Positions 11,530 through 61,413 of a DNA stretch of 64,000 nucleotides are shown here, piece after piece; position 1 is the first letter of the stretch, and each line of letters starts with the position of its first letter. The notes under the pieces were generated by a model, which searched no databases, was not told the DNA's origin, and saw nothing but the letters and a program-made list of their open reading frames with translations. The stretch comes from Tridacna crocea (taxonomy: Eukaryota; Mollusca; Bivalvia; Cardiida; Cardiidae). The stretch spans positions 54,132,192 through 54,196,191 of the forward strand of contig OX031061.1 in NCBI GenBank assembly GCA_943736015.1. The letters run 5' to 3'. The position numbers and the translations under genes were made by a program.

Positions 11530-11760
11530 TTAACCCTTTACCCCATGAGGCATTTCTATAGTATCTCTAATTGACCCTAAATAACAGCAAGGATAAAGCA
11601 GTTTCTTATGTGTATATGACACCTTTTGATAGCATAGAAAACATAATGTGACAAACGGTGAAATTGCTCGTCAAGAGCAATTTCACCTTTTGCCTCAATG
11701 TTTTCCAAAGACTCCTAAAAGCAATGTGTAGAAATGAGTATCTATGGAGTAAAGGGTTAA
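11530..11760 (+). repeat. PB-B copy, full length (231 bp)
   Basis: TTAACCCTTTACCCCATGAGG left, hairpin GGTGAAATTGCTCGTC / GAGCAATTTCACC, right GAGTATCTATGGAGTAAAGGG-TTAA. Confidence 0.95.
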
Positions 11761-12092
11761 GTTACCACCCTCTGAACCAATATAATTATATTTTGATTAC
11801 AGTTTGCAAATGAATCATGCAAAACTGCAATATTTCTTGTCTTACTGCAATTGTGTATTACCAAAAGCATTGTTTTACAGATTTCACAAAATAAATAAAT
11901 AATTTAAATAATAATTACAGAGGAGACAACTCCATCAGTGTCTGTCTGGTGTCTCTATCTGACTGATAAAAGTAGACCAATCAATAGGGGCATTACCTAA
12001 TTATTATTATTAGCTTAGAATCTTAACAAAAATTCTTAGGTCCACAACAAGTGGATTAGTTGATTGGTCCATTAATCCAACATAATGATCCA

Positions 12093-12358
12093 TTAACCCT
12101 TTACAAAACAGCAAAACTTTAGCCTTGTCATTTACAAATGATATTTCAAATGTGTTTTTTTTTTTTTTTACATGATGGCATATGTTCTTGAATAAGTTAA
12201 AAACAGTGTGGGAAACATTGTTCTTTAATAAGTTAAAAACATTGTGGGAATAGAAGAAAATGCTGGTAACCAGCATTTTCTTCTTTTCCCACAATGTTTT
12301 GAAATGCCTGCTTTCTGTTGGTCTTGATAAAATATGGAGTTGTGTAATAAATGGTCAA
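12093..12358 (+). repeat. PB-A copy with internal duplication
   Basis: TTAACCCTTTACAAAACAGC left; AATAAGTTAAAAACAGTGTGGG is followed by a second AATAAGTTAAAAACATTGTGGG before the hairpin. Stem AGAAGAAAATG / CATTTTCTTCT mirrored. Right end decayed. Confidence 0.75.
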
Positions 12359-12504
12359 CAGATAATCTTTTCTAGAACATCTCTCTATTTCAACAAAATT
12401 TTAACATCATTTGTATCAAAAGCATTCAAGATATGCTCTCTGACAAGGGAGTCAAATGCTGAAGTATTTACTCATGTCAGCCTGCATAGACAGAGCAATA
12501 AATC

Positions 12505-12690
12505 TGTGCCACCCAAACCCACATTTAACAACCCTGAGGAAGAAGTCTTTTGGAAACATGAAAAGGGGAAAGTGCTGGTACCCAGTATATTCTTCCATTT
12601 TCTACAATGTTTTCTACTCTTTCAATGCCAAATCTTAAGTGATGGCAGCCATATTTAAATTGGCACTGGAATATACTTTAAATCTTGTCA
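12505..12690 (-). repeat. Decayed PB-A copy
   Basis: CAACCCTGAGGAAGAAGTC, a degenerate stem with TACAATGTTTTCTAC, then AATTTTGTC-like remnants. Confidence 0.55.
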
Positions 12691-12695
12691 GGTCT

Positions 12696-12924
12696 TTAAC
12701 TCTTTACCATATGACAAAATTTCAGGCTGGTCCAAATTCAAAGCATTTGCAGACCACAAAATAAACATTGCTCAGAAAATGAAATTTGTTTTGGGAAGGG
12801 CAGAAAATATTACAGGAAAAGGTGAAAAAGCTGGTTACCAGCATTTTCTCCTTTTCCCACAATGTTTTCAAAAGGCTTTTTCTTCAAGGGCGTCAAAACT
12901 CGGGATTGTGTGGTAAAGAGTTAA
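12696..12924 (+). repeat. PB-A copy, full length (229 bp), with known empty site
   Basis: CTCTTTACCATATGAC left, GGGATTGTGTGGTAAAGAG right, TTAA both sides. The paralogous empty site is GGTCTTTAATGTAATAACG at about 13410-13428. Confidence 0.95.
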
Positions 12925-13170
12925 TGTAATAACGAATGAATGAATTATTTTATTGACAAAGACTATAATTTTTGAAAATACACAATATAATAAAAATTAT
13001 TGTCATCATGCTGTAGCTAGATAAAAATAATTACATATGATAGGAAATAGCGTATACTTTAGTTGCCAAACAAGACAAAATTTTTTTTTTTAGAAAATTT
13101 GAGTGATAAAGAAATCAAGTTATCGATCTGGAAAATTTTGAGAGGGGGAAAAAATTTTAAAGATAAAGAG

Positions 13171-13401
13171 TTAACCTATTACCACACAATCCCTACTTTT
13201 GACGACCCTGAGGAAGAAGCCTTTTGAAAACATTGTGGGAAAAGGAGAAAATGCTGGTGACCAGCATTTTCTCCTTTTCCCACAATGTTTCTACCCTATA
13301 CAAAACAATCATCAAATTCTCAGTCACTTTGATTTTGTTGTCTGCAATTTATTCTTTCGACTTGGACAAGCCAAACATTCTGTTGTTTGGTAATGAGTTA
13401 A
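13171..13401 (-). repeat. PB-A copy, full length (231 bp)
   Basis: Shared by both units of the duplication (partner 13659-13886). Hairpin centre GGTGACC. Confidence 0.93.
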
Positions 13402-13658
13402 ATCTTGTCAGGTCTTTAATGTAATAACGAAAGAATGAATTATTTTATTGACAAAATCTTACATAGTTTTTAAAAATACACAATATAATAAAAATTATTG
13501 TCATCAATTGCTGTAGCTAGATAAAAATAATTATAAGGAAATAGCGTGTAGGTTGCCAAACAAGACATTTTTTTTTAAAGAAAATTTGAGTGATAAAGAA
13601 ATCAAGTTAACGATCTGGAAAATTTTGAGAGAGGGAAAAAAAATGAAAAAAAAAAGAG

Positions 13659-13886
13659 TTAACCCATTAACACACAACCTGTACTTTTGAAGACCCTGAG
13701 GAAGAAGCCTATAGATAACATTGCGGGAAAAGGAGAAAATGCTGGTAACTAGCATTTTCTCCTTTTCCCACAATGTCTTCTGCTCCTCACAAAACAAATT
13801 TCAAATTTTCAGTCACTTTTATTTTGTTGTCTGCAAATGCTTTCGATTTTGACAAGCCTAAAATTTTGTCGTTTGGTAATGGGTTA
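13659..13886 (-). repeat. PB-A copy, full length (228 bp)
   Basis: Duplicate of 13171-13401 with its own substitutions; hairpin centre GGTAACTAGC. Confidence 0.93.
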
Positions 13887-14379
13887 AATGTTGCTCAGAT
13901 GATAGAAAAGGAGAAAAAAAAAAGGGAAATGAAGGAAGTACAGCAATGAAGAAAAGATAATATTTAGGAGAAACTTAAAAATTGTAAAAGTTTACCAGAG
14001 ACATCTGACTTAGGTTCATAAAAAAAATCTAGGGAAGCTTTGAATCCAGTATGGCGGTAACACTTTCAATGTGACAGAGTTCTCAACCCTGCACTGGGAT
14101 TGCTGCCTCTCTATGACAGGTTTTACAGGTTCATCACTGGCCCAGACGCCACGTCTGCTTGAATGTCCTCACAGTTTGACAGCCTTGTAGATGAGGTCTG
14201 AAAAACAAGTTGATTTTTTTCCCTTCTTCTGCTATTTTTATATCTACTTTATTGTCTTGCCTATTATCCTGTCCTTCATTTCACAAAATTTGATATCACT
14301 CTGCAAATATTTGATGTAATATTTCCTTGTACCAACCTTTGGTTCATTCTTGCATTTTGGAAAAACAAAATAATTTTGC
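13887..14379. other. No recognised feature
   Basis: Purine-rich start (about 13905-13960), then unassigned DNA. Confidence 0.45.
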
Positions 14380-14615
14380 AGAGTTAAAACATAACCAAAC
14401 AGCAGAGGTTTTGATAGTGAGCTTGGTGAGAAAGCTTTTAAAAGTATTGAGAAAGGAGAAATTGTTACAAGTAACCAAAATTTTCCTCCTATTCCTGCTT
14501 TGTTTTTTTAAGTGCTCAGACAAGTTGAAGCACCATTGAAGCACCATTGGAGCAACGTTTTACCAGTTGTCAGTAAATGCTTTCAAATTGGACAAATGTA
14601 CAATTTCTGGTCTTC
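14380..14615 (+). repeat. Decayed PB-A copy
   Basis: ATAACCAAACAGCAGAGGTTTTGATAG, GAGAAAGGAGAAATTGTTACAAGTAACC, later AAATGCTTTCAAATTGGAC. Stem strongly eroded. Confidence 0.45.
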
Positions 14616-15067
14616 CTGTCTCTTCATTTTATTGATAACATCTTAGATGATATCGTAGATCTCAAATAAAAATGTTCCTATCTAAATATATAAATAAACC
14701 ATCTCCAGAACATGCAGGATTGTTACCTCTTGCTATGATATCTTGTTTGTTGTGAGGAATGATCCATCAAGCATTAAGGGCAAGCAATCCGGGGTCTATT
14801 TCATGAAGGTGGAAAATAATAAACATCTATGTATAGATTATGAATGTCCTCTTCTTGAATATTTCTGGCAAAGTTATTAGTTTGACTTACTAAGCACATA
14901 ATGCAAAGTTTCAAATTGATTTATCAGTTATATTATGAGAATTGTACTATCAAAACGCGATAATTGTGGCCTTTGTTTACAAACACTGGATCAGTTCAAA
15001 ACATTCAAATAGGGAATACCAGGGACGAAGCAGTTACTTAGTAGTAAATTTCAACAGAGACGTGCAA

Positions 15068-15150
15068 GTAATGCTGTGGTGCAGTGGTCAAAGGGACTCG
15101 GCTACCGACCAAGCGGATCGAGTTCGAGACGCCGAGAATTTCTTTTTTTC
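15068..15150 (+). repeat. tRNA-like SINE head
   Basis: A box TGGTGCAGTGG and B box GAGTTCGAGAC about 40 bp apart, followed by a T-rich tail. The cloverleaf is not well kept, so I call a SINE remnant, not a tRNA gene. Confidence 0.55.
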
Positions 15151-16024
15151 AATAAAGCAACTGTTTTTTTTTTAAGCTAAGTCAATGGTTACATTATTTT
15201 TTTATGATATCATAGTGAGTATTTTTACTTTTACTTTGTAGTTTCATCCATATTTAATTGACATCACACAAGATTGCACATTGATCCGTCGAAAGTTAGG
15301 AAAACTTAACCAAGAAATTTCTTGTACATGAACTGATGCTAGAAATAGCCTCGTGTTTTAGACTTCTAAGATGACTAAAGCCACAAATTTCTGGCTACTA
15401 GTTTGCTTCCTGTTTCATGTCTTGGACAGAAGAGACATGTTTATATACTCACTACAGTTGGGAACTTAAGCATCTCGGAAGCTTGACTGCACAAGGATTT
15501 AAATTGATACACCAGTGGAACGGAACCACTTGTGAACTAAAGCAACCTGGGTGGAAAAGTTACTGTAGATGTGTGGTCTTTAGCAGAATAAATATTTTTT
15601 TTAAAAAAGCAGACATTGTATAGTTCAAGAAACCTGTGATCAGCTCAGCGACGAGGAAACAACAAATACTGAATCTTAAGCGGGTTAGGGCACCGATAAG
15701 GCCAATGAAAATGAAGTGAGTTCCGATACTGCCAGAGCACGGGATGAGAGTTTCACACTTATCATTTTATTGTTGAGTCAGTCATATAGAAATATGCTTT
15801 AAAACAAGAAGAATAAAATGAATAAGAATAAAATGTAATAGTAACAAAAGAATATTAATGACAAAAAAAAAAAAAGATGTACACGTCTAAGAAAGGAAGA
15901 ATAAAGGAAAAAGAAACATAAAAGACATTCAAATAAGGAAAAGAAAAGTATGGAGAGGAAAAAAAGAAAAGTAAAGTGAAAACCGAAAAAAATATGCAAC
16001 ATGCTTCCTTAAGAAAAAAAAGGT
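15151..16024. other. No gene seen; purine-rich tract at 15795-16020
   Basis: The 3' part is A/G-rich with AATAAAATG-type repeats; it opens a long low-complexity frame on the minus strand that I do not take as a gene. Confidence 0.5.
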
Positions 16025-16298: not shown

Positions 16299-16529
16299 TT
16301 AACCCTTTACCCCATAAGACATTTCTATGGTATCTCTAATTGACTCTAAATAACAGCAAGGATGAAGCTGTTTCTTATGTGTATATATGACACCTTTTGA
16401 TAGCATAGAAAACATTGTGGCAAAAGGTGAAATTGCTCGTCACGAGCAATTTCACCTTTTGCCACAATGTTTTCCAAAGGCTCCTAAAAGCAATGCGTAG
16501 AAATGAGTATCTATGGAGTAAAGGGTTAA
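16299..16529 (+). repeat. PB-B copy, full length (231 bp)
   Basis: TTAA both ends; hairpin GGCAAAAGGTGAAATTGC and exact partner around GCTCGTCACGAGC. Confidence 0.95.
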
Positions 16530-19788: not shown

Positions 19789-20017
19789 TTAACCCTTTAC
19801 CCCATAAGGCATTTATATGGCATCTCTAATTGACCCTAAATGACAGCAAGGATGAGGCCGGGTCTTATGTGTAAATGACACCTTGTTATAACATAGAAAA
19901 CATTGTGGCAAAAGGTGAAATTGCTCATCACAAGCAATTTCACCTTTTGTCACAATGTTTTCCAAAGGCTCCTACAAGCAATGTGTAGAAATGAGTATCT
20001 GTGGTGTAAAGGATTAA
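19789..20017 (+). repeat. PB-B copy, full length (229 bp)
   Basis: TTAA both ends, CCCTTTACCCCATAAGGC left, hairpin around GCTCATCACAAGC. Confidence 0.94.
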
Positions 20018-27900: not shown

Positions 27901-30900
27901 ACTTCTCTCCATCCAGGGAATCATTTTGCTCATTAGCAATTGATATTGTTACAATTTTTTTCATCAGGCATAAAAAGAGATGGGGTTTCATTGTAATTTA
28001 TTTTCAAATTCTGAGATTTTACTCTCCTGTTTTTTTAACCCTCTTCTTCATAACTAAAAAGTTGAAAAAAAAAGTTAATAAGAGCACTGAAAGAAAAGGA
28101 GAAAATGCTGGTATCTATAATAAATTCCAAGACTTCCCAAAACAAAACGTTTGTGTGAGTTATTATCTTGTCTTCAATTACTCTCAATTTGGACAAGTCT
28201 AAATTTTTTTCTTTTGAATTATTTTGTTGAAAAAAGAAAGAACCAAAAACAGAAGATGTTGTTTATCTCATAGAAAAAGTGACGAAAAGGAAAACTAGGG
28301 ATCTCAACTGCAAAAAACAACCCACAAGGAAATAAAGTGAAAAGGTGTAAATATGGTTTAATATCTAAACTGAGGTGAAAGATGTAGGACCTTGCCATCT
28401 CTATGAATGGCATTTAAGTGGAAAAGTTTTCTCTTAAACATCATTTATGTCTATGACACTGAATATATGATGTACAGTTTTGTATAAGATATGACAAAGT
28501 AATAAGTTTTCTTATTGTCCACCGGTACATATCTGATAATAATACAAGGAATATTTTAAAATTTTAATGGTACAGTATTCCCATAAAGACCCATGTCTGT
28601 CGTATAATTATTCCAGTTGGCAATAAATGTTACCGTGTTTTTGTGATGAAAAATATCTATCGCCACATGCCCCTTGACCCATGCAGACTCAAGACAGTAC
28701 AAGAAAAGAACTATAAATGTCACAGTGCTCTTCGAGAGAACAAAGGACTTTGTAGTATGCTCCTATAAACTGTTTAATTGTCTTCTTGTGGACACGAATA
28801 TTGTGATTATTTTGGTGTTTTTTCACTTTTTTGTTTTATCCTTTAGAGGGCCAAATAAACAAATTTGAAATTATCATGAAAATTTAAAGTTCCTAAGTTA
28901 AATGTTACAATGTGTTTTTTGTTTAAATGCAGCCATTTGGCCTGGCTGTCTTGGGAAAGCAGTTTGTTGTAGATCTAAGAGCACACTGCACATTTTTGTG
29001 CAGACCAAACTTGATAATACGCTAGCTGCAAAAGTAACAGTTCTTTGGATGAGTTTTCTTAGGGTTTATCCTTTACCATTAAGTTTTCTACTCTATCAAA
29101 GAAAAATAGCACCATTTGAGGCACATTTTTCAAATTTCAAACTTTTGAGTCGTTTTTATTTTGTCATCTGCAAATGCTTTCGATTTGGACAAGCCTAAAA
29201 TAATTATTGTCATTTGGCAATGAGTTAAAACATTGTGGCAATAAGGGAAACAGTCATGTAGGATCAAATTTTTTATCAAGAATGATAAATTGCCAAACAA
29301 AGGAAAAACGTTTGAAGGAGAAATACATTTATTGCAATAATCTTGGACAACTAGACTTCCAGTTCCACAGTGTTTAACTTGTTTTTGTGAGGAATTTTTC
29401 ATATCGGCTTTTTTCGGAGTAAAAGGTATATTTTGTTGATCATCAACTCCTTCTCATTACATTAATTTTCTGTCCGAGTAAGAATATCTTTTTCTTAAGA
29501 TTGACTGTCATTATTTTTATTTATTATTACGAGTTCAAAGGCTAAGTTAAGAATAAAGCAACAGCAATTAGAAACAAGTTTAAAATATGAAACTATACTA
29601 ATTTAGTGAAGAATATAATGTTAAAGAATCAAAGTTATCATGTAGGTCAAGATACCATTTAAAAACTTGAATGATATTATCTATATAACCATAAAATCTA
29701 GACAAACTCAATGAGATTTTTCTTCTAGACTCTCTACCTGAAGAAAGTTTGTCAAAGAGTTCTGTATCAAATCTTTGTTTCTATAATGTTTCATTCATTA
29801 AGTCCTTAACTCTTTACCGCACAAGAAAATTTTAGACTGGTCCAAATTGAAAGCATTTGCAGATGACAAAATAAAGGTGACTGAAAAATTGAAATTTGTT
29901 CTGGGAAGGGTAGAAAACACTCTGGAAAAAGGAGAAAATGCTGGTTACCAGCATTTTCTCCTTTTCCCACAGTGTTTTCTAAAGGCTTCTTTCTCAGGGG
30001 CGTCAAAAGAAGGGATTGTGTGGTAATGGGTTAATCTTTTCACCACTGTTGTCAGCATAAAGTGCCTTTGCCTTTCAATGAAGGAAACACTGCAGAGGGC
30101 TAACAGATAAAAAGCTGACGGCATTATTAGATAATTATTATTCATACAGAATAATTTGATAAAGATCGCAGTTCTAAAGATACTGATCGTGATGTCTTGG
30201 CCATTGTTTGTTGAAAGTGATAAATCTTTCCGTTAGAGCTGAGAATTGGGATTTGACAAGAGAAACCACTTTACCAACAGAACCTTCTGTTGGTGTAAGT
30301 GTTACTTCCTTACCAAATGATAGAAATTTAGACCAGTCCATTACCACACGAGAAAATTTTAGACTGGTCCAAATTGAAAGCATTTGCAGACAACAAAATA
30401 AAGATTACTGAAAAATTGAAATTTGTTCTAAGGGAAGGGTAGAAAACACTGTGGGAAAAGGAGAAAATGCTGGTTACCAGCATTTTCTCCTTTTCCCACA
30501 GTGTTTTCAAAAGGCTTCTTTCTCAGGGGCATCAAAAGGAGGGATTGTGTGGCAATGGGTTAAAAAGCATTTGCAGACAACAAAATTAATCCGACTCGAG
30601 AATTGAAATTTGTTCTTGGAAGGGTGGGAAGTATTGTTGGACAAGGAGAAAATGCTGGTTACCAGCATTTTCTCCTTTTCCAACAAGGTTTTCAGAAGGT
30701 TTCTTTAACAGGGTCATGAAAAACCAGGGCTTATTTGGTAAAGAGGTAATGACTTTTTACTATCACAGTGGCATCTTCTATTATCTCTATTTCCTCATTT
30801 TCCCACGTTGTTTTTGAAGTCTTAAATTTTTCTTCAGGGTTTTTCAAAACTGATTGTTTGGTAAACTTACAGTGCAGCTATGGTCAAATGTATAGTTCAG

Positions 30901-33900: not shown

Positions 33901-36900
33901 TGTGGGAGGGGTATGCCACGGGAATAACAGAAAGGAACTGTACTGGGTCCTCCCAGAAAGGGTTAAAAGCATGAAATAAATAGAATATTTGGGTTTTTTT
34001 TTGTGAAAGATCGAAATTTATTTCACCAGATTTTGATATAAAATAGTAATAAGATAAAAGAGGCTCATCACTATTTACCACTATGCAGTAACAGAGTTTG
34101 TGGTTTATTCAGAGCTCCAGATAGAGGGAGTCATTTTGATTTCAAAACTGAAAAATAGTAATTATTCTCCACTAAACCCAATGTGGTGGGTACTCATTAG
34201 AATCGTCTCATCAAGACAATTCTAATGAGTACCCACAACATAGGGTTTGGAAGAGAAATAATGGATTTAGGATACCATCAATCCGACATAGCTGGAGCTC
34301 TGTTATTTTCAGCAACTATGAAATGTTGATTATTTCCTAATTTCTACTGACTTTGTGGCTTCAGATCCAATGCATTGGAATGAGATTCATGTGGTACAGT
34401 GGTTGAACTGGGCTATCCGAGAGTTCACTCTGGAGGGCGTGAACATCAACAACTTTACCATGAAGGGGAGGGAACTCTGCAAGATGGAGAAGGAGAAGTT
34501 CCTGAAGTTGGCTCCGCCCTTCATGGGTGATATACTGTGGGAACATCTGGACATCCTGCAGAAAGGTAGGAAAATGAAAACAGCTTAACCATTTGCCAGA
34601 CAATTCTATGGTTTGTTTTGTTGGTTTTTTTCGTCCCTCAGGAAGAACAAAATGGATAGAAATTAGAAAATGCTGGTAATCAGCATTTTCTTCATAACTC
34701 TTTATGGCACAGTCCTGACTTTTAATGAACCTGAGAAAGAGGCTGTTTGAAAACATTGTAGGAAAAGGAGAAAATGCTGGTAACCAGCATTTTCTCCTTA
34801 TCCCACCATGTTTCTACCCTTCTCAAAACAAATTTCAATTTTTGAGCCACATTGTCTGCAAATGCTTTCAATTTGGACTGGCCTGCAATTTAGTAGTTTG
34901 GTAAAAGATCTAACCCAGAATGGTTTTCAAGTCTGTCATATAGTCTGTAATAAATGCTTTCCATTCTGAAACACTGCATCTTGTACAAGAGCTAAAGTTA
35001 TATTTTTTTTATGACATGAATGGTTTTTGGTGACCTTAAATAAGATGCTTAAAAAGTGGATATCAGGTGAAAGATGTCACAGAAAGAAGGCAATGGTTTT
35101 GATATATGGTCAATATTCATATGTCGTGACTAAGTCAGGTTATGTTGACATTCTTTTGAACATTTTTACTTGTAATTCTTTACAAGATGAAAAAAAAAAT
35201 TGAGACTGGTTTATATTTGAAGCATTTGGGAGACAAATTATAATCATATACATGTTATCATGGTATAGTTCTTTGAAAGGGTAGAAATTATTATATTTCT
35301 TTTTAAACAGAGTAATTTACATAATTCTAGTTTGAAGCATGTTTCTTCTTTTTCCCATAATACTTGCAAGAGCAATCTTCAGAAGGGTCATGAATGGAAT
35401 TTCTTTTGGCCATCACAACACATTTTTTGTACTAAGCTGTACCTCTTTTATTTGTTGAGATGGTGTCATCACAAATCATAATGTGTCAGGATACCATGCT
35501 TTAGGTACATTAACCTTTTACCCCACAAAGCATTTCTATGGTATCTCTAATTGACCCTAAATAACAGCAAGGATGAAGCTGTTTCGTATGTTTATACGAC
35601 ACCTTTTGATAGCATAGAAAACATTGTGGCAAAAGGTGAAATTGCTCGTCACGAGCAATTTCACCTTTTGACACAATGTTTTCCAAAGGCTCCTACAAGT
35701 ATTGTGTAGAAATGAGTATCTATGGAGTAAAGGGTTAAGTATACAGCCCATTAAAAGAAAGATAAAACTTATTATATTTCTGAAAATGTTGAAAAATGTC
35801 CATGACTGTTAAATGTCATCTTGACTCTTGTTTATGATATAAACTTATCATTGTTATGGTGTAGCCAGTGTTCCATTCAACAATACTGTCTACGGATTAC
35901 ACCATTCCTCAAAATTGCTCACCCTTTTCCATTATAATATGAAAATGGCAGTAGTCAAAAGTCTGACTTCAAGCTGTGGTTGTGAGGTAGAGCATCGGCC
36001 TCGTAACCATGTGGTCCTGAGTTTGATGCTCAGGAGCAGATGTCAACTTTGGGATTTTTCATTGGCCCACACACTCGATGCGAGTACTGGTGTAGTTCCC
36101 AGGAAGCAGAATCGAGAGAGATTACTGTAGTGTAAGTTGTAAAAACTTGTTTCTCAATCAATGTAAAATAAATATGTTTATAGTACTAAGCCCCTACACC
36201 AGAGGTCCTGGGTTTAAAACACTAGTATGAAGGGCTGAAGCTTTAACCTTTTACCATATGCCAAAAATTATTGAAAAATGAATCTTTGAAACAGTTGCAT
36301 TTTTTGTGAAAAAGAATCTGCCATGGAAAATGACAATTAACCTTTTACCATATGCCAAAAATTATTGAAAAAGGAATCTTTGAAACAGTTGCATTTTTTT
36401 TGTGAAAAAGAATCTGCCATGGAAAATGACAATTAATACAAAAGTATGACTGGAGTTCTTAAAGCAAAGACAGACTTTAGTGCTGTGATGAAAACCACTC
36501 TTTCCCTGCACCAAACAATCCCTGGTTCTTACGTACCTGAGATAGAAGTCTTTTGAAAACATTGTTAGAAAAGGAGAAAATGCTATTAACCAGCATTTTC
36601 TCCTTTTACCACAATGTTTTCTACCATGCTGGAAACAAATTTCAATTTTTGAGTTATGGTTATTTTGCCTTCTGCAAGACTTAATGCTTTCAATTTGGAC
36701 CAGTCTAGAATTCTGTAGTTTGATAAAGGGCTATTTGACGTTATATGATTGTTGAGAGAAAGATCACTTATCTCATATTTGAAAAAGATGTATATCTTGC
36801 ATTAAATACAGCCTTTTTTTCCCCTTATTTTTTTTGTACATCAGATGCCTGACAGCCACTTGAAGTGAGGAGTACAAAAAAGTACATGCTTTAGATTTGA

Positions 36901-39900
36901 TTTAGATTTTCAATTATATCGTCAACATTTCTTTTTCCATTTAACTGATTAGGTGACATTTTTTTGAAAGTTGTCAGCTATCGTCTCTTTGCATCCCGCA
37001 TGGGTCACATAGTTTGACTTGTGATTTAATGTCGTTGTTTTTCATTATCACACTATAGCCTTTTATCTCGTGTTGATTTGGGAGATTGAGTCTGCGTTAC
37101 ATTAAGTAGTAGAACGCAGTTATTGTATTCCTTGAAGTCCCTTGCGATGCTTTGGTTTCCTTTTGCAGCCAATGTAGATCAACATCAGCCTGCACAAAAC
37201 ATGCAGTCTGGTGTTTGATCTGCATCTTCTGCCTTGCTGAGGCATTCTGGCCAAAGACAACCTTGAAATGTGTGTTATTCCTGTATTGAATTAATTTATT
37301 CTACACTGAATTTATTTGTTCTACATTGAATTTATTTGTCCTGCATTGACTTAATTAACTCTACCTTGAAATTATTTATTCTACATTGAATTTATCTATT
37401 CTACAGTGAGTTTATTTATCATACATTGAATTTAGTTATCTTTCATTGAATTTATTTATTAATGAGTAAATTTATTCTATATTGAAATTATTTATTCTAC
37501 ATCAAATTTATTTATTCTACATCAAATTTATTTATTCTACATTGAATTTATTGAGCCTTCTCTGGATTAATTGTTTACACTTTAATTTTCCAACACTATT
37601 TTCTAAAATTGTTATTGAAAACATTGAAGTCTGATATTTGATCTATACTGGGCGAAAAAAGGGACTACAATAATTGTGAAAGACACTTAACAGGCAAAAT
37701 AGGTTTCGAACCGAATGACTTATAAAGGAAACATATTGCAAATGAAATAAGCAGACGGCAATCAGTATTTCGTGTGGCAACTGTAATGCAAATGTTGTAA
37801 TTTGTATCTGTTGTTTTATATTTATGTATGCATGACACTTTTGGCAGTTTATATATCTATTTTGTCATATTAAACATTTAGATTGTATTACTTTACTCTC
37901 AAAACACCAAGGACAAATTCAGTTTACTGTGTGTGTGGTTAGTGTTGGCCAAGATCAGATTCTACAAAGTGTGCCGTCTGAGCTCTGATCTACAAGATAT
38001 TCTGCTTGAATACACTGAAAATATTAAGAAATATGCTTTCTTTGTTTACCTTAACTCATTACCAAACAACAAAATTTTAGATTAGTCCAAATCGAAAGCA
38101 TTTGCAGACGACAAAATAAAAGTGACTGAAAATTTGAAATTTGTTTTGTGAAGGGTAGAAAACATTGTGGGAAAAGGAGAAAATGCTGGTTACCAGCATT
38201 TTCTCCTTTTCCCACAATGTTTTCTAAAGGCTTCTTTCTCAGGGGCGTCAAAAGTAGGGATTGTGTGGTAATGGGTTAAGTCAATTTCTCTCTTTTATAC
38301 TTTAACCCCTGGAACTGAACAATCCTTCAGAAAATGTTGCAGAAAAATGGAGAAAATCCTGTTAATCAGCATATTTCCTCCTTTTTCAGCTTGTTTTTTT
38401 CTACCCTTTCCAAGACATATCAAATCAATTAGGACACAATTAGGACAAATTCAATTTGTTGTCTGCAAATGCTTTCAGTTTAGGTCAGTCAGTAACAAAA
38501 TAATCCCTGGTTTTCATGACCATGCAAAGGAAGGCTTTTGAAAACGTAGTGGGAAAAGGAGAAAATGCTGGTAACCAGCATTTTCTCCTTTTCCTACAAT
38601 GTTTTCTACCCTATCAAAGACAGAAATCATCATTTGAGTTTCAGTTAAATTGTTGACTGTGAGTGCTTTCCATTTTTTCAGTTCCAATGTTTCATCATTT
38701 GGCAAAGGGTTTGATATAAATATATATACTTATGTGTTTTGTTTGAATTTTTGTAGATGTAAACCAAGAGCAGAGCTCTCTGTGTAATGTTCCCCCTACT
38801 TATAGTGAACCTGTATGCATGCCAGAGTTTAGTAACCACGCCAACCATGATGACCACCCGTTATTTAATTCAGGTAGATTTAGCGCTGATTTTAAATTCG
38901 CTGTATTGCATTAACTCTCGGTATAGGTACATGTAGTTTTTTTTTTGAGTGATCATAACGAAGTTGCATATTTAAGTCCTTACACTTTAACAAAATTTTA
39001 GACTTGGCAATCATGTTGAAAGCATTTTGTAGATATTTTATGCTGTTTATAAGCATTTTGTTTTTTTCTCCACAATGTTTTTAAAATTCTTCTTCCTGAG
39101 AGTCATTGAAATAAGAAGTGTGTTCCAAAGCATTACATGCTGGAATGGTCACATTGGTATTGGGTCAGTGAGATATGTTCCGAACTTTAACATGCTTTAG
39201 TATGATGTGTACTTTTAATTTATTAAGTCATAAGTCAAATCTTGAATAAGGGGAAAAGGCACATTATTACATAGGAAATACAATAAATTTAAGATAAGAC
39301 ATTGGACAAATAAAAATGAAAAATAATCTTTTTTTGCAAGAATTTCTTTTAAAAAAGCAAAGAAGTGAAATGTAGTTGTAACATTGTCTTGAAGTGTGCT
39401 AAAGTAAACAATGCATGGGTATACGAAATATCACAATTTTGTTTTCAGTGGATTCAAAACATGATTTTGTAGACTAGTTTACTAATTCTATGTTGTAATG
39501 TTTCCGTCTGTAAGTGCATTTGATGAGTCTAAGTGTCAGTTTTGTGATAAATACTGTTATCAGAAATGCGAAAAAAGTATTATTGATGATTGTTAATTCC
39601 AGCCGAGTCATGAAATGGAAAAGATGTGAAAAGAACATCTAGTTAGTTTGACTCAACATCTGATAAAATTTGTTTTCTTTTTTAGGTTATAACCAATCAA
39701 CAGAAAGTCAAGTTTCCCCACCTGTTCAAAGTACCCAGCCAGCCTTTACAGAAAATAAATGTAAGTATATTTAACCCTTTACCACACAATCCTGACTTTT
39801 AACGACCCTGTTAAAGAAGCCTTCTGAAAACATTGTGGGTATAGGAGAAAATGCTGGTCACCAGCATTGTCTCCTATTCCCACAATGTTATCTTTCCTTC

Positions 39901-42900: not shown

Positions 42901-45900
42901 GTGTGGTAAAGAGTTAACCCTTTGACAAACAATCCCTGGTTTTTATGACCTTGAGAAAGAACCCTTTTGAAAGCATTTGGGAAAAGGAGAAAATGCTGGT
43001 AACCAGCATTTTCTACTTTTCCTACAATGTTTTCTGCCCTTCTGGAAACAATTTTAAATTTTCGAGTTACATTTATTTTGTTGTCTGCGAGTGCTTTTAA
43101 TTTGGACCAGTCTAAAATTTTGTCGTTTGGGAAAGGGTTAAGTAGACATTGTAGACAAAGACTCAGACTACAGAAAATGATTTTTTCCTTTACAAATAGA
43201 AGAGAAACATGTAAAAGGGAATAGTAAGAATGGTAAAGTTCATAGATTTTTGGAACTTGTTTCTGGTCAGTGTGATAAATCATGTTGTTCCTTTACCAAC
43301 CCATTCCATATATGACTATGAGGGAAAAGGCTTTTTTAACAAGTTGGGAAAACAAGATGATCTTGGTTGAAGCTGTTTTGCATAAATGTTTTGTTCTTTC
43401 TGGCAGACAAATCCAATATAATTGGTTATTTTCTGATACTTTTAGTTTGGAGTCATTTTATATTAATTGCATGGTAAGGAGTAAAAACTATGAAGTCTAA
43501 CTGATTGTTTTCCCTGTTTAAAATTTACAGGTCAATTTATACCACAAGAAGCTCACACCCAGCCACAGACGGAAAGCTACTTTGATCAGCCCCACCAGTA
43601 TCAGATGGTTCCCAATATCAAAACAGAGATGCCATGGTCGCACCATGACTACCCAGGGTGCCGAGATCTAAATGGCAGCTGGTCTCCGACCGATCTCAGA
43701 ACAAATATGTCCAGAGCAGGGTACCACCCCTTGCACAATATCGGTGATATGGCACTTGCACAGGGTGCTGACAATAAACCCATGATACAGGCAGCAGCTC
43801 TAGCTGGTTATTCAGGTAGGTTGCATTCTTAACCGATTACAAAGAAGCCCTGGATTTTACGACCTTGAGATAGAAGCCTTTTGAAAACATTGTGGGAAAA
43901 GGAGAAAATGCTGGTAACCAGCATTTTCTCCTTTTCCCACAATGTTTTCAACCCTGCTGGAAACAGATTTCAATTTTTGAGTTACATTTATTTTGTTGTC
44001 TGCAGATGCTTTCAATGTGGACCAGTCTAAAACTTTGTTGTGTTGTAAAGAGTTAACTCTTTAACCCTTTACTCCATAGATACTCATTTTGACATATCAA
44101 CAATAGACAGCTTTTGAAAACATTGTGGAAAATGAAGAAATTGCTCGTAACGAGCAATTACTCCTTTTCCCTCAATGTTTTCCACTCAATCAGATATTTA
44201 TATCCTCGTTTGACCATATTTTTGACATCATATCTTTATTTGCTGCTGAAATGGAAGAGCCTCAAATTGGCATATCAGGTAAAGGGTTAACAGATAAAGG
44301 TGAAGATTTTAGACTTGACAAAATTTTAGACACACTGGGCTGGTTAGTATTAATCCTCTACTACACAATCCCGAGTTTTGTCGAAAAGCCTTTTGAAAAC
44401 ATTTTTGGGAAAAGGAGAAAATGCTGGTAACCAGCATTTTCTCCTTTTCCCACAGTGCTTTCTAAAATTTCAAAATTAAATTTATTCATTTTAGAAACTA
44501 ATAGTTGGTTGTCAGCAAATGCTTTCAATTTGGAAGAGTCCAAAATATGGTCGAGTGGTACAGGGTTAATTAACTCATTACCAAACGGCAATATTTTAGA
44601 CATGTCCAAATCAAAAGCATTTGAATAAGACAAAATAAAAGTGACTGAAAGTTTGAAAGTTGTTTTGGGAAGGGTAAAAAATATTGTGGGAAAAGGAGAA
44701 AATGCTGATTACGAACATTTTCTCCTTTTCCCACAATGTTTTCTAAAGGCTTCTTTCTCAGGGTCTTCATAAATCAGGATTGTGTTGTAATGAGTTAAAG
44801 AGGGCTACAACAGATGAGGTAAATGTAGCTAATAAAGAAGGGATATCTTTGTGAAAAGTGAGAAATGATCGTGACAAGAGAAGAAAATGCTTTTATTAAA
44901 ACTATTACCATTCATGTCGGGATTTTATATCTTTTTGATAAAGGCATAATGATTTTACGTCATTGTTTTCATGAAAATGAATATTTTATTTGACATGAAT
45001 ATTACCATTGAATAATATATTATAATTAAATGAAGTGAAAATATCACGTAGGTCTGTAACAGCACATGTTTCAGATGTCATCCCTTTCGTTTGATGATGA
45101 CTGTTCATTATCTGATCGTAAATTTGACTGTTTACCGCTTTATCAGACTGATGAGTCCTTTTGAAAACTTTGTAGGAAAAGGAGAAAATGCTGGTAACCA
45201 GCATTTTCTCCTTTTCCCACAAAGTTTCGTACTCTATCAAAGAGAAATTGCATCGTTTGAGTCTCTGTGAAGTTATCGTCTGCAAATACTGAGTTTTAAC
45301 GTCACATAGGAAATTGCCTATTGACAACTATGTTTAGCTCTTTACCAAACAATCTCTGGTTTTTACAACCCTGAGATAGAAGCCTTTTGAAAACGACAAG
45401 CCTTTTGAGATAGAAGCCTTTTGCTGGTAACCAGCATTTTCTCCTTTTTCCACAATATTTTTCATCCTGTTGGAAACAATTTTCAGTTTTTGAGTTAAGT
45501 GTATTTTGTCATCTGTTTGTGCTTTTAGTTTGGACCAGTCTAAAATTTGTCGTTTGGTAAAGGGTTAAAAAGGAGAAAATGCTAAATAGCAGCATTTTCT
45601 TCTTTTTCCACAAGGTTTTTTACATTTACACAGACAGTTATCCTCATTTCAGCAAAATTTAATATGCTGCCTGCAAATGTTTTCAATTTGGACCAGTCTA
45701 CAATTTTGTTGTCTGACAAAGAGTTGAAGTGCTACAAATGTATTTAAAACCTTTTCAATAAAACCATGTTGTTGTCATATTTCAGGCAGCACAATGTAAC
45801 TTTTATAATAAGACCATATTTGTTTTCTTATATCAGGCAGCGGACCAATACAGCTATGGCAGTTTTTACTAGAACAACTGACAGACAAATCTTGCCAGCA

Positions 45901-47369: not shown

Positions 47370-47625
47370 CTCTATGGCTTGCAAAACGTGAAAAAGGGCA
47401 TTTTGATCTTTGCGTAAAGTGTTGTCCCGGATCAGCCTGCACTGTCTTTGAAGGCTAATCTGAAACACCACTTTCCGTTTTTATGTAATTTACTGTGATT
47501 GCTTAAGTCTACTGTAGTCGAAAATCTTATGTAGTCATAAAGTGCCTTCATGGATTGCACATATTGTGCAGGCTGATCGGAGACAACAATTTACACCAAG
47601 GCCCCTTTGTTGCAAGCCATATATG
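47370..47625. repeat. Inverted-repeat element with TATGGCTTGCAA ends
   Basis: TATGGCTTGCAA near 47371 is inverted as TTGCAAGCCATA near 47611. Inside, GTTGTCCCGGATCAGCCTGC and GTGCAGGCTGATCGGAGACAAC are partners. Confidence 0.8.
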
Positions 47626-49715: not shown

Positions 49716-49944
49716 TTAACCCTTTACCTCATACGGCATTTCTATGGTATCTCTGTCTGACCCTAAATAACAGCAAGGATGAAGCAGTTTCTTATGTGTA
49801 TATGACACCTTTCGATAGCATAGAAAACATTGTGGCAAAAGGTGAAACTGCTCGTCATGAGCAATTTCACCTTTTGCCACAATGTTTTCCAAAGGCTCCT
49901 ACAAGCAATGAGTAGAAATGAGTATCTATGGAATAAAGGGTTAA
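49716..49944 (+). repeat. PB-B copy at the minisatellite edge (229 bp)
   Basis: Flanks GTTATC-TTAA and TTAA-AAATCTGG rebuild the minisatellite motif ATCTTAAAAA, showing TTAA-specific insertion for family B. Confidence 0.95.
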
Positions 49945-53436: not shown

Positions 53437-53668
53437 TTAACTCTTTCCCAAACAAGCCCTGGTTTTTACATGTCTGCAGTAACTATGAGACTTAAGAAAA
53501 CACTGTGGGAAAAGGAGAAATTGCACATAACAAGCAATTTCTCCTTTTCCCACAGTGTTTTCAAGCCTATCGGAAAACTTTCTGCCATTCTCATCAAATT
53601 CAAAATTGTCATCTGCAAACACTTTGAGTTTGGCACAGTCTAAAATTTGTCATTTTGGGAAGGGTTAA
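53437..53668 (-). repeat. PB-A variant with altered inner stem
   Basis: CCCAAACAAGCCCTGG left; hairpin GGAGAAATTGC..GCAATTTCTCC (ATTGC as in PB-B) with mirrored CACTGTGG / CCACAGTG; TTAA both ends. Confidence 0.9.
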
Positions 53669-54399: not shown

Positions 54400-54792
54400 T
54401 AAAATTCAAATGTGGCTCAAATGATGGAATTTGACTTTGATAGGAATGAAAACATTGTGGGAAAAGGAGAAAATTGCTGGTTACCAGCATTTTTCTCCTT
54501 TTCCCACAATGTTTTAAACCCTTTACCCCATAAGGCATTTCTATGGTATCTCTTATTGACCCTAAATAACAGCAAGGATGAAGCCATTTCTTATGTGTAT
54601 ATGACACTTTTTGATAGCATAGAAAACATTGTGACAAAAAGTGAAATTGCTCATCACGAGCAATTTCACCTTTTGCCACAATGTTTTCCAAAGGTTTCTA
54701 CAAGCAATGTGTAGAAATGAGTATCTATGGAGTAAAGGGTTAAAAGGCCTCTTGCCTGAGTTGCTAAAATTCAGGATTGTAATTGTCACAAA
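54400..54792 (+). repeat. PB-A copy interrupted by a PB-B copy
   Basis: Left part to CCCACAATGTTTTAA at 54517; right arm resumes at 54744 as AAGGCCTCTTGCCTGAG..CAGGATTGTAATTGTC. Left TIR eroded. Confidence 0.85.
54515..54743 (+). repeat. PB-B copy nested in PB-A (229 bp)
   Basis: CCCTTTACCCCATAAGGC left, hairpin around GCTCATCACGAGC, GGAGTAAAGGG-TTAA right. Confidence 0.94.
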
Positions 54793-55100: not shown

Positions 55101-55264
55101 AGGGCCCGTATTCACCAAGCATTTTTGAGAATATTCTATATTTGTAAGTAACACAACTTCTGATTGGCTAAACCGAATGGTTTAGCCAAACAGAAGTTGT
55201 GTTACTTACAAATGTAGAAAACTCTGAAAGATAAGACAAAGAATGGTTGGTGAATACAGGCCCA
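55101..55264. repeat. Foldback element with GGGCCCGTATTCACC ends
   Basis: Near-perfect inverted arms: GGGCCCGTATTCACCA / TGGTGAATACAGGCCC outside and ATTTGTAAGTAACACAACTT with exact partner inside; centre near 55178. Confidence 0.88.
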
Positions 55265-57300: not shown

Positions 57301-57776
57301 CAGAGACAAAGGTTAAACATGCATCAAGGAACAAAGAATAAATTACATACCGTTCACATCCTCCATAAATATGCCTGATCGTTCTTTCTTTTTGATGACC
57401 ATGGCATTTGTATTTGCTTTCTTTGCAATGCAAAGAAAATGAATTTGATCACACACATTTACACAGATAACTTTCTGCTCGACAGCATGACGTCACATGA
57501 GGCGGCACCATGTATTATTTAGCATAGAAAAATTTCCTAGTTAGCAGTGCATCAATTTAGCCAACCTATTTAGTTTTGAAAGGCCCGCCAAAAAACAAAA
57601 AGAAAAAAACAAAATCATGTATATGATATTATCAACACACTTTGGTTGCGGATTTTTCTTATACATACTTGCGTATCATGAGTAATGGGCGCTACACCCT
57701 TGAAAAATCCTTTCCAAATCATAAAAGATGAAATTTTGCCCCTCTTTCTCAACACTTTTCCTTTTTCCCAAAGGTA
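57301..57776. other. No recognised feature
   Basis: Unassigned DNA between the CCAAT repeat and REP-D. Confidence 0.45.
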
Positions 57777-58016
57777 TTTATACCCCCCACAATGAAGTGG
57801 AGTGTGGTGTACTGGAATCACCATGGCTGTCCGTCGGTCTGTCTGTCTGTCTGTCTGTCTGTCATTCTGTCTGTAGACACAATTTTGTGTGGAGATTTTT
57901 TCCAACAGTTTTTCAAATACTGCACTGAAATTCACACATAATGTTTGTGTACATGTGAAATTGTGCATGTGCAATTTTCACGACCTTCCTGCCATGGGTT
58001 TCTGAATTATCTCCCC
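57777..58016 (+). repeat. REP-D dispersed repeat with (GTCT)n
   Basis: TACCCCCCACAATGAAGTGG, a GTCT microsatellite at 57835-57872, TTTTCCAACAGTTTTTC, GTGCATGTGCAATTTTCACG; ends at a PB-A TTAA. Confidence 0.8.
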
Positions 58017-58245
58017 TTAACTCATTACCAAATAACAATATTTTAGGCTTGTCCAAATGGAAAGCATTTGCAGACAATGCAATAAAAGTGACTGAAAATT
58101 TGAAATTTGTTTTGTGAAGGTTAGAAAACATTGTGGGAAAAGGAGAAAATGCTGGTCACCAGCATTTTCTCCTTTTCCCACAATGTTTTCTAAAGGCTTC
58201 TTTCTCAGGGTCGTCAAAAGTAGGGATTGTGTGGTAATGGGTTAA
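58017..58245 (+). repeat. PB-A copy, full length (229 bp)
   Basis: TTAA both ends; hairpin perfect with GGTCACC centre. Confidence 0.95.
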
Positions 58246-58654
58246 GCTTGTAAGGTTTCCTGCATTGTTGTTGTCCAGAGCATTACTCATAGAGTTTTGC
58301 ATTGAAAAAATTTGTGTGCAGTCTAGGGGGCCACATTTTCCGTCTGACAATCATGAAACTTTGTCAGAATGTCAGGATTGTATTTCTGACAAGTTGGAAA
58401 TTGGGTTACTCTGGGTCAAAAAGTAGGTCACTAATGCTTATGTGTTTTGAGGACCTTTTCACACTTATCAGCACAAGATGACTTTACTCAGGTGAGCACT
58501 TTAAGACCAATGACCCTCTTGCTTAACAAAATTAAAATGTCTAAGTTTTTAACAAAGTAGATTTGAGAAGTTCCAACATAGCCAATATTACAAAACTCTT
58601 TTATCACCTATAGAATGTTGTTGAGAAAATGATAAATGTTTGCACTATTAACCC

Positions 58655-58795
58655 ATAAAGCGCTGGAACCAAATTAACTTGTTTTTGTGGACAGTGTAGA
58701 TCAAGATCAGACTGCACAGAACATGCAGTCTGATCTTGGATCTACACTGTCCACTAATTTGTTTCATATTCTGGCCAAAAAAAATCTTGGTACAG
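58655..58795 (+). repeat. PAL-C palindromic repeat, good copy
   Basis: GGACAGTGTAGATCAAGATC..AGACTGCACAGAACATGCAGTC..GGATCTACACTGTCC, followed by CATATTCTGGCC as in other copies. Confidence 0.85.
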
Positions 58796-58841
58796 TAGAA
58801 GTTTTTCCTATTTTAAAATGTCTCTTGTATTAATTCAGCAC

Positions 58842-59070
58842 TTGAACTCTACCAAACGACAAATTTTATAGACTGGTTCAAATTGAAAGCATTTGCAGAC
58901 GACAAAATAAATGTGGCTGAAGAATCGAAATTTGATTTGGAAAGGGTAGAAAACATTGTGGGAAAAGGAGAAAATGCTGGTTAACAGCATTTTCTCCTTT
59001 TCCCACAATGTTTTCAAAAGGCTTCTACTCCAGGATCGTCAAAAATCGTTATTGTGCAGTAAAGGGTTAA
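58842..59070 (+). repeat. PB-A copy, full length (229 bp)
   Basis: TTGA left, TTAA right; hairpin centre GCTGGTTAACAGC. Confidence 0.93.
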
Positions 59071-59333
59071 GGGTTAACCATTTAGTTCCCTATGTTTTCT
59101 TCGGTTACCTATGTTTTCTCCTCTTTTTACAGGATTGTAAAACAAGCTATATTTTTGGTAAAGATTTTAACTTTATTTTGTAAAGGTACAACAGTGGCAT
59201 TTCACTCTTCACAACACATGTATGTCTAAAGTCTTCTCTTCTTTGATTATCATCTCAGAATATCCTGCCTGTCATCATTCTCTCCCTGAAACTAAAGTCA
59301 GCGAAAGTCAAAAGAGAATATGTGCATGTTTAT

Positions 59334-59793
59334 TTAACCCTTCACCAAACAATCCGTAGTTTTTTATGACCATAAGATGGAAGCCTTTTGAAAGCATTGT
59401 TTGTCAAGGACAAAATCATTTGACCCTTTACCACACAATCCAAAGTTTTAACGACCCAGAAGATGAAAGCCTTTTGAAAACATTATGGGAAAAGGAGAAA
59501 AGGCTGGTTACCAGCATTTTCTGCTTTTCCCACAATGTTTTCTACCCTAAGACAATTCTTTCCATTTGAGCCAGATTAAAATTGTTGTCTGCCACTGCTT
59601 TCAATTTGGACCAGTCTTATATTTTGTCGTTTAGTAAAGGGTTAATGCTGGTAACCAGCATTTTCTCCTTTTCCCACAATGTTTTCTACCTTGCTGGAAA
59701 AAAATTTTGATTTTTGAGTTATGTTTATTTTGTCATCTGCAAGTGCTTTAGATTTCAACCAGGCTTAATTTTTGTTGTTTGGGAAAGGGTTAA
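59334..59793 (-). repeat. PB-A copy split in its hairpin by another PB-A
   Basis: CCCTTCACCAAACAATCC left to AAGGACAAAATCA at 59418; resumes at 59646 as TGCTGGTAACCAGCATTTTC; right TTGTTTGGGAAAGGG-TTAA. Confidence 0.88.
59420..59645 (-). repeat. PB-A copy nested in PB-A (226 bp)
   Basis: TTGACCCTTTACCACACAATCC left, good hairpin, GTCGTTTAGTAAAGGG-TTAA right. Confidence 0.92.
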
Positions 59794-59796
59794 AGC

Positions 59797-59973
59797 TTAA
59801 CTCTTTATCAAATGAATACATTTTAGGATTGCCCAAATCCAAAGCATTTGCAGACGACAAAATGAAAGTGACTGAAAATTTGAAATTTGCTTTGTGAAGG
59901 GTAGAAAACATTGTTTTCTAAAGGCTTCTTTCTCAGGGTCATCAAAAGTCGGGATTGTGGGGTAATGGGTTAA
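59797..59973 (+). repeat. PB-A copy that has lost its hairpin (177 bp)
   Basis: GTAGAAAACATTG joins TTTTCTAAAGGC: the palindrome is removed and both outer arms are intact; TTAA both ends. Confidence 0.93.
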
Positions 59974-60081
59974 GACTAGTCTCTTACCCGTTGTCACTTA
60001 TGCCCAAAGTTTGACACCCCTGTCTGCTTTCTTGTACCATACCATTTTTTAGAACATTCTTAGTATGCAACTTTCTTTCCT

Positions 60082-60222
60082 CGTGGCCAACTACTTTTCT
60101 CACATGCATAAGAGGTGAGAGGAAAAAAATTCAATGCAAAGAAAATTAGTTTCAACCAGGTATTGAACTCGTAACCACCAGGTCAGATATGCTAATCAGT
60201 GAGCTACCTGTGCCAGCTCTGG
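60082..60222 (-). repeat. SINE fragment, type 1
   Basis: GTGGCCAACTACTTTTCTCAC and, on the minus strand, GGTAGCTCACTGATTAGC..GGTGGTTACGAGTTC; relative of 4403-4675. Confidence 0.65.
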
Positions 60223-60254
60223 TTTTTCTTCTACTGGTATTTTGTACAAACCTT

Positions 60255-60471
60255 TTAACCCATTACCACACAATCCCTACTTTTGATGCCCTTGAGAAAG
60301 AAGCCATTAGAAAGCATTGTGGGAAAAGGAGAAAATGCTGGTAACCAGCATTTTCTCCTTTTCCCACGATGTTTTCTTCCCAACACAAATTTTCAGTCAT
60401 GTCTATTTTGTCATCTGCAAATGCTTTGAATTTGAATCAGCCTAAAATTTTGTCATTTGGTAAAAAGTTAA
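60255..60471 (-). repeat. PB-A copy (217 bp)
   Basis: TTAACCCATTACCACACAATCCC left, perfect inner hairpin, TCATTTGGTAAAAAGTTAA right. Confidence 0.93.
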
Positions 60472-60818
60472 GCTCATAGTTCCTCATGCACAGACTCTAT
60501 GAGATACTGTATACAACAGGGATCAGGAATTTTCAGAGGAATTTTCCTGCAAGTATCTGTTACCTGAAACTAATCTTGTGATGTATGACCATTTTCAGCA
60601 TGCTACAGGTTTCAACTCAGTCGATAGATATTTCATTAATTGTGACCTGAAGGCAGAAAATACATGTACTAGAAAATGGTAAAAATAAACCACTATCTCT
60701 GTCCCTATGTTCTTCTAAGTGGAGAGATCATGGGACATTGTCCAACTCGATAAAAAAATATAATCAAAATGCACTTAGAAAGGACTTTGTCCCTTTCCAT
60801 GTTCTGTGAACAGGAGGC
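60472..60818. other. No recognised feature
   Basis: Unassigned DNA. Confidence 0.45.
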
Positions 60819-61051
60819 TTAACCCTTTATCAAGCAATCCCTGGTTTTTTATGTCCATGGCGGCAAAGAAGACTTTTGAAAACAATGTGGGAAAAGGAGA
60901 AAATGCTGGTAGCCAGCATTTTCTCCTTTTACCACACTGTTTTCTTCCCTATCGGAGACCTAAAGCTAATTTGTTTCAATTCTGTTTTTTGTAGTCTACA
61001 GATGCTCTCAGTTTGAAAGAATGCAAAATTTGTTGTTTGGGAACAGGTTAA
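60819..61051 (-). repeat. PB-A copy, full length (233 bp)
   Basis: TTAACCCTTTATCAAGCAATCCC left, hairpin with GGTAGCC centre, TTGTTTGGGAACAGGTTAA right. Confidence 0.92.
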
Positions 61052-61184
61052 TGCACCAGCTAAACTCAAAAGGTATTGTCCCATGTCAGCCTGCACAGAC
61101 AAAAGTCTGACATGGATCTTTTTGATATATTGGTCAATACTCTGCATGCTCAAGAACCATTCTACCCTACAATTCAGCCTGTTG

Positions 61185-61413
61185 TTAACCCTTTACCCCA
61201 TAAGGCATTTCTATGGTATCTCTAATTGACCCTTGGTAACAGCAAGGATGAAACCGTTTCTTATGTGTATATGACACCTTTATATAGCATAGAAAACATT
61301 GTGACAAAAGGTGAAATTGCTCGTCAAGAGCAATTTCACCTTTTGCCACAATGTTTTCTAAAGGCTCTTACAAGCAATGCGTAGAAATAAGTATCTGTGG
61401 AGTTAAGGGTTAA
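61185..61413 (+). repeat. PB-B copy, full length (229 bp)
   Basis: TTAA both ends; hairpin around GCTCGTCAAGAGC. Confidence 0.95.

Follow-up and report, generated by a model that had tools for sequence, protein, structure and literature searches.

A 64,000-nucleotide stretch of the genome of the bivalve Tridacna crocea (the window; contig OX031061.1, C6:54132192-54196191) is crowded with TTAA-bounded elements of about 229 bp, lying on both strands, whose interior holds a long palindrome. The element falls into three lineages, A, B and C, and the consensus palindromes of these lineages differ by changes that are mirrored on the two arms. The palindrome changes about four times more slowly than the flanking parts of the element in A and B, and individual copies mostly carry changes on one arm only. 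Constraint on the palindrome together with rare copying from arm to arm fits these results best. The element may be a miniature inverted-repeat transposable element (MITE) of the piggyBac superfamily, with the palindrome acting as a cis element required for mobility, most likely a symmetric transposase site; our analysis gives this reading about an even chance.

Anatomy of the element and its three lineages

The assembly comprises 1,048,827,098 bases in 31 contigs, of which C1 to C18 measure 40-77 Mb; the two next contigs checked are shorter than 60 kb. Consensus sequences were built from elements with both ends (147 of 195 hairpins), using 107 of 111 copies of lineage A, 25 of B and 11 of C, and are 229, 229 and 228 nt long respectively. 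All three lineages share one layout, in which a 67-nt palindrome (33 + 1 + 33) is flanked by a long outer arm of about 107 nt on one side and a short one of about 55 nt on the other. The palindrome arms, 33 nt around one centre base, read GAAAACATTGTGGGAAAAGGAGAAAATGCTGGT in A and GAAAACATTGTGGCAAAAGGTGAAATTGCTCGT in B; arm sites are numbered from 0. The stems of A, B and C fold into near-complete hairpins, with energies of -37.2 to -38.3 kcal/mol for DNA folding, -51.4 to -52.2 kcal/mol for RNA folding, and z-scores of -14.6 to -16.6 relative to shuffled sequences. Perfect 33-bp palindromes were present in 18 of 159 A hairpins, 5 of 25 B hairpins and none of 11 C hairpins.

An end sequence of the element is TTAACYCWTTACC. 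In copies found by their outer arms, TTAA occupies both flanks with a mismatch of 0-12% per column over the first and last four alignment columns; no empty target site was encountered. Inside the TTAA, both ends of the B and C consensuses and the short end of A read CCCTTT; in A the consensus of the long end is CTCTTT, with T at the second position in 73 of 108. The element is short, homogeneous and of high copy number, and its consensus length is insufficient for a transposase. A mechanical list of open reading frames held none longer than 148 aa in the window, and no tRNAs were found there. Samples from 18 chromosomes, taken at a single preset position in each and amounting to 180 kb, gave 110 hairpins (92 A, 10 B and 8 C), which extrapolates to an inferred genome-wide number of about 640,000. 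The perfect inner 35-nt A palindrome occurs, as an exact match, 173,858 times in the genome.

The earlier note had described the A and B stems as equal in length and as differing at four sites per arm, each difference being a base-pair flip mirrored on the opposite arm, and alignment of the consensuses bears this out (sites 13, 20, 25 and 30: G/C, A/T, A/T and G/C). No unmirrored differences were seen within the arms: the consensuses differ solely at mirrored sites and at the centre base, which is T in 9 of 11 C copies and 95 of 111 A copies, and C in 23 of 25 B copies. The two elements that had been named as intermediates both aligned as lineage C (Table 1). The four-site state of C is G,A,T,C; it agrees with A at sites 13 and 20 and with B at sites 25 and 30. 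Over the 67 nt, identity is 58/67 between A and B, 61/67 between A and C, and 60/67 between B and C. If four independent changes had occurred on each arm, the chance of their falling on identical sites with identical bases would be about 3e-7. When the four sites were read on both arms of 188 hairpins (49 more were excluded because an arm had more than 9 mismatches), 98 were A/A, 14 B/B and 6 C/C, and the remaining 70 deviated, on a single arm or on both, at one site or more. No hairpin combined an A-state arm with a B-state arm, either among these 188 or in a later set of 195.

A fifth mirrored difference, absent from the earlier note, was found at site 7. It is a transition, T to C, which converts CATTG to CACTG together with CAATG to CAGTG. 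The site-7 variant constitutes a true sub-lineage of A, its 11 copies having an outer distance of 0.113 compared with 0.262 in randomly drawn sets (none of 500 draws was as close), and the same change is present in the C consensus. Site 12 of B shows a partly unmirrored change, G to A, on the left arm in 9 of 24 and on the right arm in 3 of 24 (arms read on the + strand, in a set that includes loci picked by a B stem); this may mark a sub-lineage of B.

The outer arms of the families had been thought otherwise unrelated, a view that the alignments contradict. A and C are homologous on both sides, with scores against shuffled sequences of 106 versus 20.9 ± 7.5 (long arm) and 57 versus 6.8 ± 5.8 (short arm). 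On the short side, A and B score 35 versus 6.9 ± 6.3 in 300 shuffles (maximum 25), and B and C score 32 versus 10.1 ± 5.9 (maximum 27). The long arms of A and B are near noise, at 30 versus 17.3 ± 7.1 (maximum 43), and those of B and C stay within the shuffled range, at 32 versus 20.7 ± 6.8 (maximum 41). Aligned outer arms of A and B are identical at 52 of 108 positions on the long side and 31 of 52 on the short side. Given their equal lengths, palindrome position and termini, A, B and C are best regarded as lineages of a single element.

Conservation and mirrored change in the palindrome

Rates of change were compared in elements found by their outer arms alone, and hence sampled blind to the hairpin (126 pairs for A and 27 for B). 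The comparison left out CpG sites and the centre base, as well as the loci selected by a B stem (L001-L008). The inner 39 nt of A carried 140 changes compared with 570 expected from base-matched outer rates, a ratio of 0.25 (bootstrap 0.20-0.29; 112 copies), and those of B carried 7 compared with 32, a ratio of 0.22 (bootstrap 0.09-0.36; 19 copies); this comparison covered A and B, and the outer positions contain sub-lineage sites. When positions with more than 15% mismatch were removed, the inner ratio was 0.40 in A and 0.22 in B, in a set still including L001-L008. Sliding ratios in A were 0.23-0.27 in the middle of the element and higher outwards. A second, milder dip in divergence lies near A positions 45-60.

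At least 8 hairpin positions were missing in 12 of the 153 elements found in this way (11 of 126 in A, 1 of 27 in B). The 11 A deletions each had a different endpoint pair, with near-agreement between two (117-136 and 118-136), and the B deletion had the coordinates of one of the A deletions. No amplified form lacking the hairpin was present among the 153 elements, a small sample. This deletion pattern agrees with the palindrome being needed by mobile elements.

Changes within lineages were scored in 195 hairpins (159 of them A; 78 were dropped) and compared with 400 simulations in which the numbers of changes per copy and per site were held fixed. Outside site 7, A copies contained 35 mirrored changes compared with 19.8 ± 4.4 in the simulations, the largest of which also reached 35. 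In the 136 least diverged A copies the excess was clear, 20 compared with 7.7 ± 2.8 (largest simulation 19). Discordant double changes in A, 23 compared with 22.0 simulated, were at the expected level. That mirrored substitutions should exceed unmirrored ones holds in A only as a small excess over simulation, and in absolute number single-arm changes dominate, 560 to 35.

Two sites were counted across the whole genome in inner A palindromes that were perfect elsewhere. Copies altered at site 25 on a single arm numbered 1,630 for one arm and 1,699 for the other (3,329 in total), and 94 copies were altered on both, compared with 15.9 expected if the arms changed independently. Among 50 distinct places listed, 36 of these double changes were mirrored (T 19, G 12, C 5) and 14 were not. 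The single-arm spectrum, with G at 50, T at 30 and C at 20 of the 100 places listed, predicts 38% mirrored among doubles, and the difference from the 36 of 50 has a P of about 1e-6. Scaled to all 94 copies, discordant doubles number about 26, compared with roughly 10 expected. Differences in copy age thus inflate both classes, which makes the proportion of mirrored changes the more reliable indicator. Site 22 does not distinguish the lineages; both of its arms were altered in 196 copies, and the 50 that were listed comprised 40 mirrored (G 34, T 5, C 1) and 10 unmirrored cases. The listings cover the earliest places along the genome and are not a random sample, and some mirrored cases may represent small lineages or duplicates instead of separate events; the site-25 base tallies were counted from the listings.

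Copy age as the sole cause of the mirrored excess was rejected: the per-copy and per-site controls and the discordant doubles indicate that it explains part only, although at least 1 of the 400 simulations reached 35 in the full A set. Subfamily structure holds as the cause for site 7, and was not seen for three two-copy variants that were tested.

The earlier note had stated that every change is to the complementary base. This is correct for the four sites that separate A from B, and is not true of mirrored changes generally, site 7 being a transition. The 35 mirrored changes within A consist of 22 transitions, 2 flips and 11 others, and flips make up 132 of 582 single-arm changes in A. Transitions account for 34 of the 40 mirrored changes listed at site 22, and flips, 19 of the 36 listed, are most frequent at site 25; the flip shares of the listed mirrored changes at the two sites (19/36 and 5/40) differ with P 0.0002. 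Flips were consequently ruled out as a general signature of arm correction, mirrored changes in A and at site 22 being mostly transitions and site 25 an exception. The site-25 flips may reflect not a general rule but what is left of the step that separates C from A. Between lineages, four flips out of four has P 0.0026, and four out of five, with site 7 included, P 0.011; compared with the 2 of 35 within A, Fisher's test gives P 0.0008. The test rests on five lineage-level events and was framed post hoc, and the excess of flips at this level is only suggestive.

Explanations for the matched arms

Two causes had been offered for the mirrored differences: either the hairpin is under selection, or one arm is repeatedly corrected from the other. 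The inner ratios in A and B uphold constraint; correction is upheld solely as a rare event, by the mirrored excess in A and the double changes at site 25. The combination of the two fits best because correction accounts for matched arms and not for the slow rate, which constraint does account for. Under the mechanism that we propose, elements able to move would have to carry a matched palindrome, which would serve as a symmetric cis element, recognised most probably by the transposase as a dimer. A source lineage would shift if, before it died out, template switching transferred a mutation from one arm to its partner or a second, matching mutation arose. After insertion, copies would decay one arm at a time.

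The genome contains 118 matches to the piggyBac DDE domain (PF13843), some of which have open frames and score equally at more than one location. Termini were of the TTAACCC type in 7 of 16 fetched matches, those with ends resolved; they are alike in kind to those of the MITE but different in sequence. Fragments of piggyBac transposase form clusters at C8:56.71-56.76 Mb and C13:4.48-4.61 Mb. Short palindromes near the ends were seen by eye in L031 (at both ends) and L033; a threshold scan listed just another, in L029. In piggyBac and piggyBat, dimers of the C-terminal transposase domain bind palindromes of 14-19 bp near the ends, as described in passages of PMC11707139. From these published structures we infer transposase binding to the MITE.

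Several results weigh against the proposed mechanism. The 16 matches fetched of the 118, with ends resolved in 7, included no autonomous element with the MITE termini or palindrome. The palindrome here is 67 nt long and lies 55-107 nt inside the element, in contrast to the shorter, near-terminal palindromes just described for piggyBac and piggyBat. No mirrored excess was found in B or C (B 4 versus 3.2 simulated, C 2 versus 1.7). Singletons in the inner 39 nt deviate in opposite ways, B having 7 compared with 22.2 expected and A 37 compared with 19.2; as constraint acting on source elements alone predicts equal private mutations inside and outside the palindrome, the level at which constraint acts is ambiguous. 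The preference for flips between lineages is also left unaccounted for.

Mutational upkeep alone, in which template switching or quasipalindrome correction copies arm to arm and the hairpin has no function, is an unlikely alternative to a required cis element. The mechanism has been described, in parts of PMC8794818, and would produce the mirrored excess in A, including that in low-divergence copies, and the genome-wide doubles at site 25. Correction should equalise the arms without slowing change, but the palindrome is far more conserved than the outer arms, so this explanation is already strained. It also has to contend with the large majority of single-arm changes and with the contrast between mirrored changes within A, mostly transitions, and those between lineages, mostly flips, although at site 25 flips are frequent among the mirrored changes listed.

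Conversion between copies, with breaks centred on the palindrome repaired from other copies so that hairpins stay alike while outer arms drift, would account for conservation centred on the palindrome in single copies of both A and B, and would fit the deficit of singletons in B. However, the lineage states are unmixed, with no A/B hybrid among the 188 hairpins, and C combines A-type outer sites and B-type inner sites yet has T at the centre, as in A, and not C, as in B. We regard such conversion, too, as unlikely.

It is also conceivable, if rather improbable, that mobility depends on the structure of a long and perfect DNA palindrome, either an extruded cruciform or a dyad read through the groove, with base identity free and pair class fixed. 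Source lineages might then flip G-C and A-T pairs on both arms together, and rarely change the pair type.

Selection on an RNA hairpin from transcribed copies, as a small RNA precursor or protective double strand, is consistent with the near-perfect folding of all three stems as RNA. In the parts of PMC8794818 that treat ribosomal RNA (rRNA), however, 61% of instantaneous compensatory changes are of the G-U type, and four of the five lineage-level changes here are not. Wobble-keeping changes are not favoured in A (112 kept and 105 broken, a weak test with most copies likely dead), and the window has no Rfam match at the gathering threshold; these results make an RNA function very improbable. 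Separate inverted duplications of arms that had already diverged would, by reasoning alone, give mirrored differences for free, but the arm length, position, termini and short-side flanks common to A, B and C already disfavour this origin, and a stepwise appearance of mirrored changes within one palindrome lineage is seen in C and in the site-7 sub-lineage; this origin is likewise very improbable.

With perhaps half a million or more copies in one genome, the element is a natural experiment that allows site-by-site counts of changes on one arm and of mirrored changes. It makes testable the role of MITE interiors in mobility, a question raised for the coral elements considered below, and the frequency with which a palindrome arm is repaired from the other arm in a large genome.

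Elements in the window and comparison with known systems

Representative elements of the three lineages in the window are listed in Table 1. All seven B elements lie on the + strand, which may be chance at this number.

Table 1. Copies of the element in the window, by lineage (window coordinates)
Lineage	Element	Strand	Hairpin	Remarks
B	16299..16529	+	16408-16474	best B example; TTAA-bounded; perfect hairpin, both arms exactly the B consensus
B	11530..11760	+	11639-11705	
B	19789..20017	+	19896-19962	
B	35510..35738	+	35617-35683	
B	49716..49944	+	49823-49889	
B	54515..54743	+	54622-54688	
B	61185..61413	+	61292-61358	
C	44061..44290	-	44116-44182	intermediate; C is the nearest of the three lineages; both arms carry private changes
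C	53437..53668	-	53496-53562	mirrored CACTG/CAGTG variant
A	38051..38279	+	38158-38224	near consensus; one of 58 A hairpins kept in the window
A	58017..58245	+		palindrome intact
A	29806..30034	+		site 7 T to C on both arms
A	59797..59973	+		hairpin mostly lost; one of the 12 with at least 8 hairpin positions missing

The A consensus is open over nearly its full length on both strands (72 and 74 codons), which was matched on both by 24 of 2000 first-order shuffles; the B and C consensuses are less open. Such open frames could put A elements, for example 38051-38279, into gene predictions. Protein-like translations of such hairpins occur in the gene predictions of other organisms. A poorer copy of a second, unrelated inverted-repeat family, with a core near GATTAGCCTGCGCAG, lies at window position 47443, and inverted repeats with the GATTAGCCTGCGCAG core were seen elsewhere in the genome at L008:496, L010:6237 and L025:6348. 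Another recurrent inverted repeat, near AGTAACACAACTTCTGATTGGCTAAACC, was observed at window position 55173 and at L024:7982, L017:2200 and L003:2283.

Searches for relatives in the viral collection IMG/VR gave no matches. In the prokaryotic collection GTDB one search gave none and another gave two, both in DNA of 55% and 61% GC and, by eye, with no palindrome beyond the pattern itself; records close to the genome of the window may be missing from the material searched. The four papers listed as containing the letters of the stem have unrelated titles. No earlier report of this palindrome was seen among the papers listed by literature searches (20 of 211 and 20 of 64 in two of them), which lay mostly outside subscription journals and Repbase-type libraries, and the element may well be catalogued.

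The MADE1 MITEs are said to have given rise to human microRNAs. They resemble the present element in being short DNA transposons tied to hairpins; in MADE1 the hairpin reportedly derives from the terminal repeats, whereas here it is a separate central palindrome.

The closest published case that we found is the CMITE group of Acropora corals, although the present element differs from it in sequence. CMITEs are TTAA-flanked, piggyBac-related elements of about 100 bp with mostly CCCTTT-type ends, and their internal region, for which the authors propose a role in transposition, is more conserved between families than the terminal repeats, according to sections of PMC2872659; the main text of that paper does not contain the words palindrome or hairpin. 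TTAA flanks and a conserved interior are common to both, and the ends are mostly of the CCCTTT type, with CTCTTT at the long end of A; the length is about 100 bp in the corals and 229 here. Unlike the present palindrome, the 60-nt CMITE internal consensus does not fold into a single long hairpin, and it has no likeness to A, B or C above that of shuffled sequences (local scores 24, 16 and 22, with shuffle maxima of 31, 29 and 26).

RNA stems repaired by template switching, as portrayed in portions of PMC8794818, combine compensatory change on two arms with copying from arm to arm, as we propose for this palindrome. According to the same portions, rRNA stems show mostly changes that can pass through G-U, whereas the lineage changes in this DNA transposon are mostly flips. 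As for the piggyBac and piggyBat ends covered by those passages of PMC11707139, binding is demonstrated there by structures and would follow here by analogy. What those ends would have in common with the MITE is a dyad-symmetric cis site inside the element, and the sequence of that site differs between piggyBac and piggyBat themselves.

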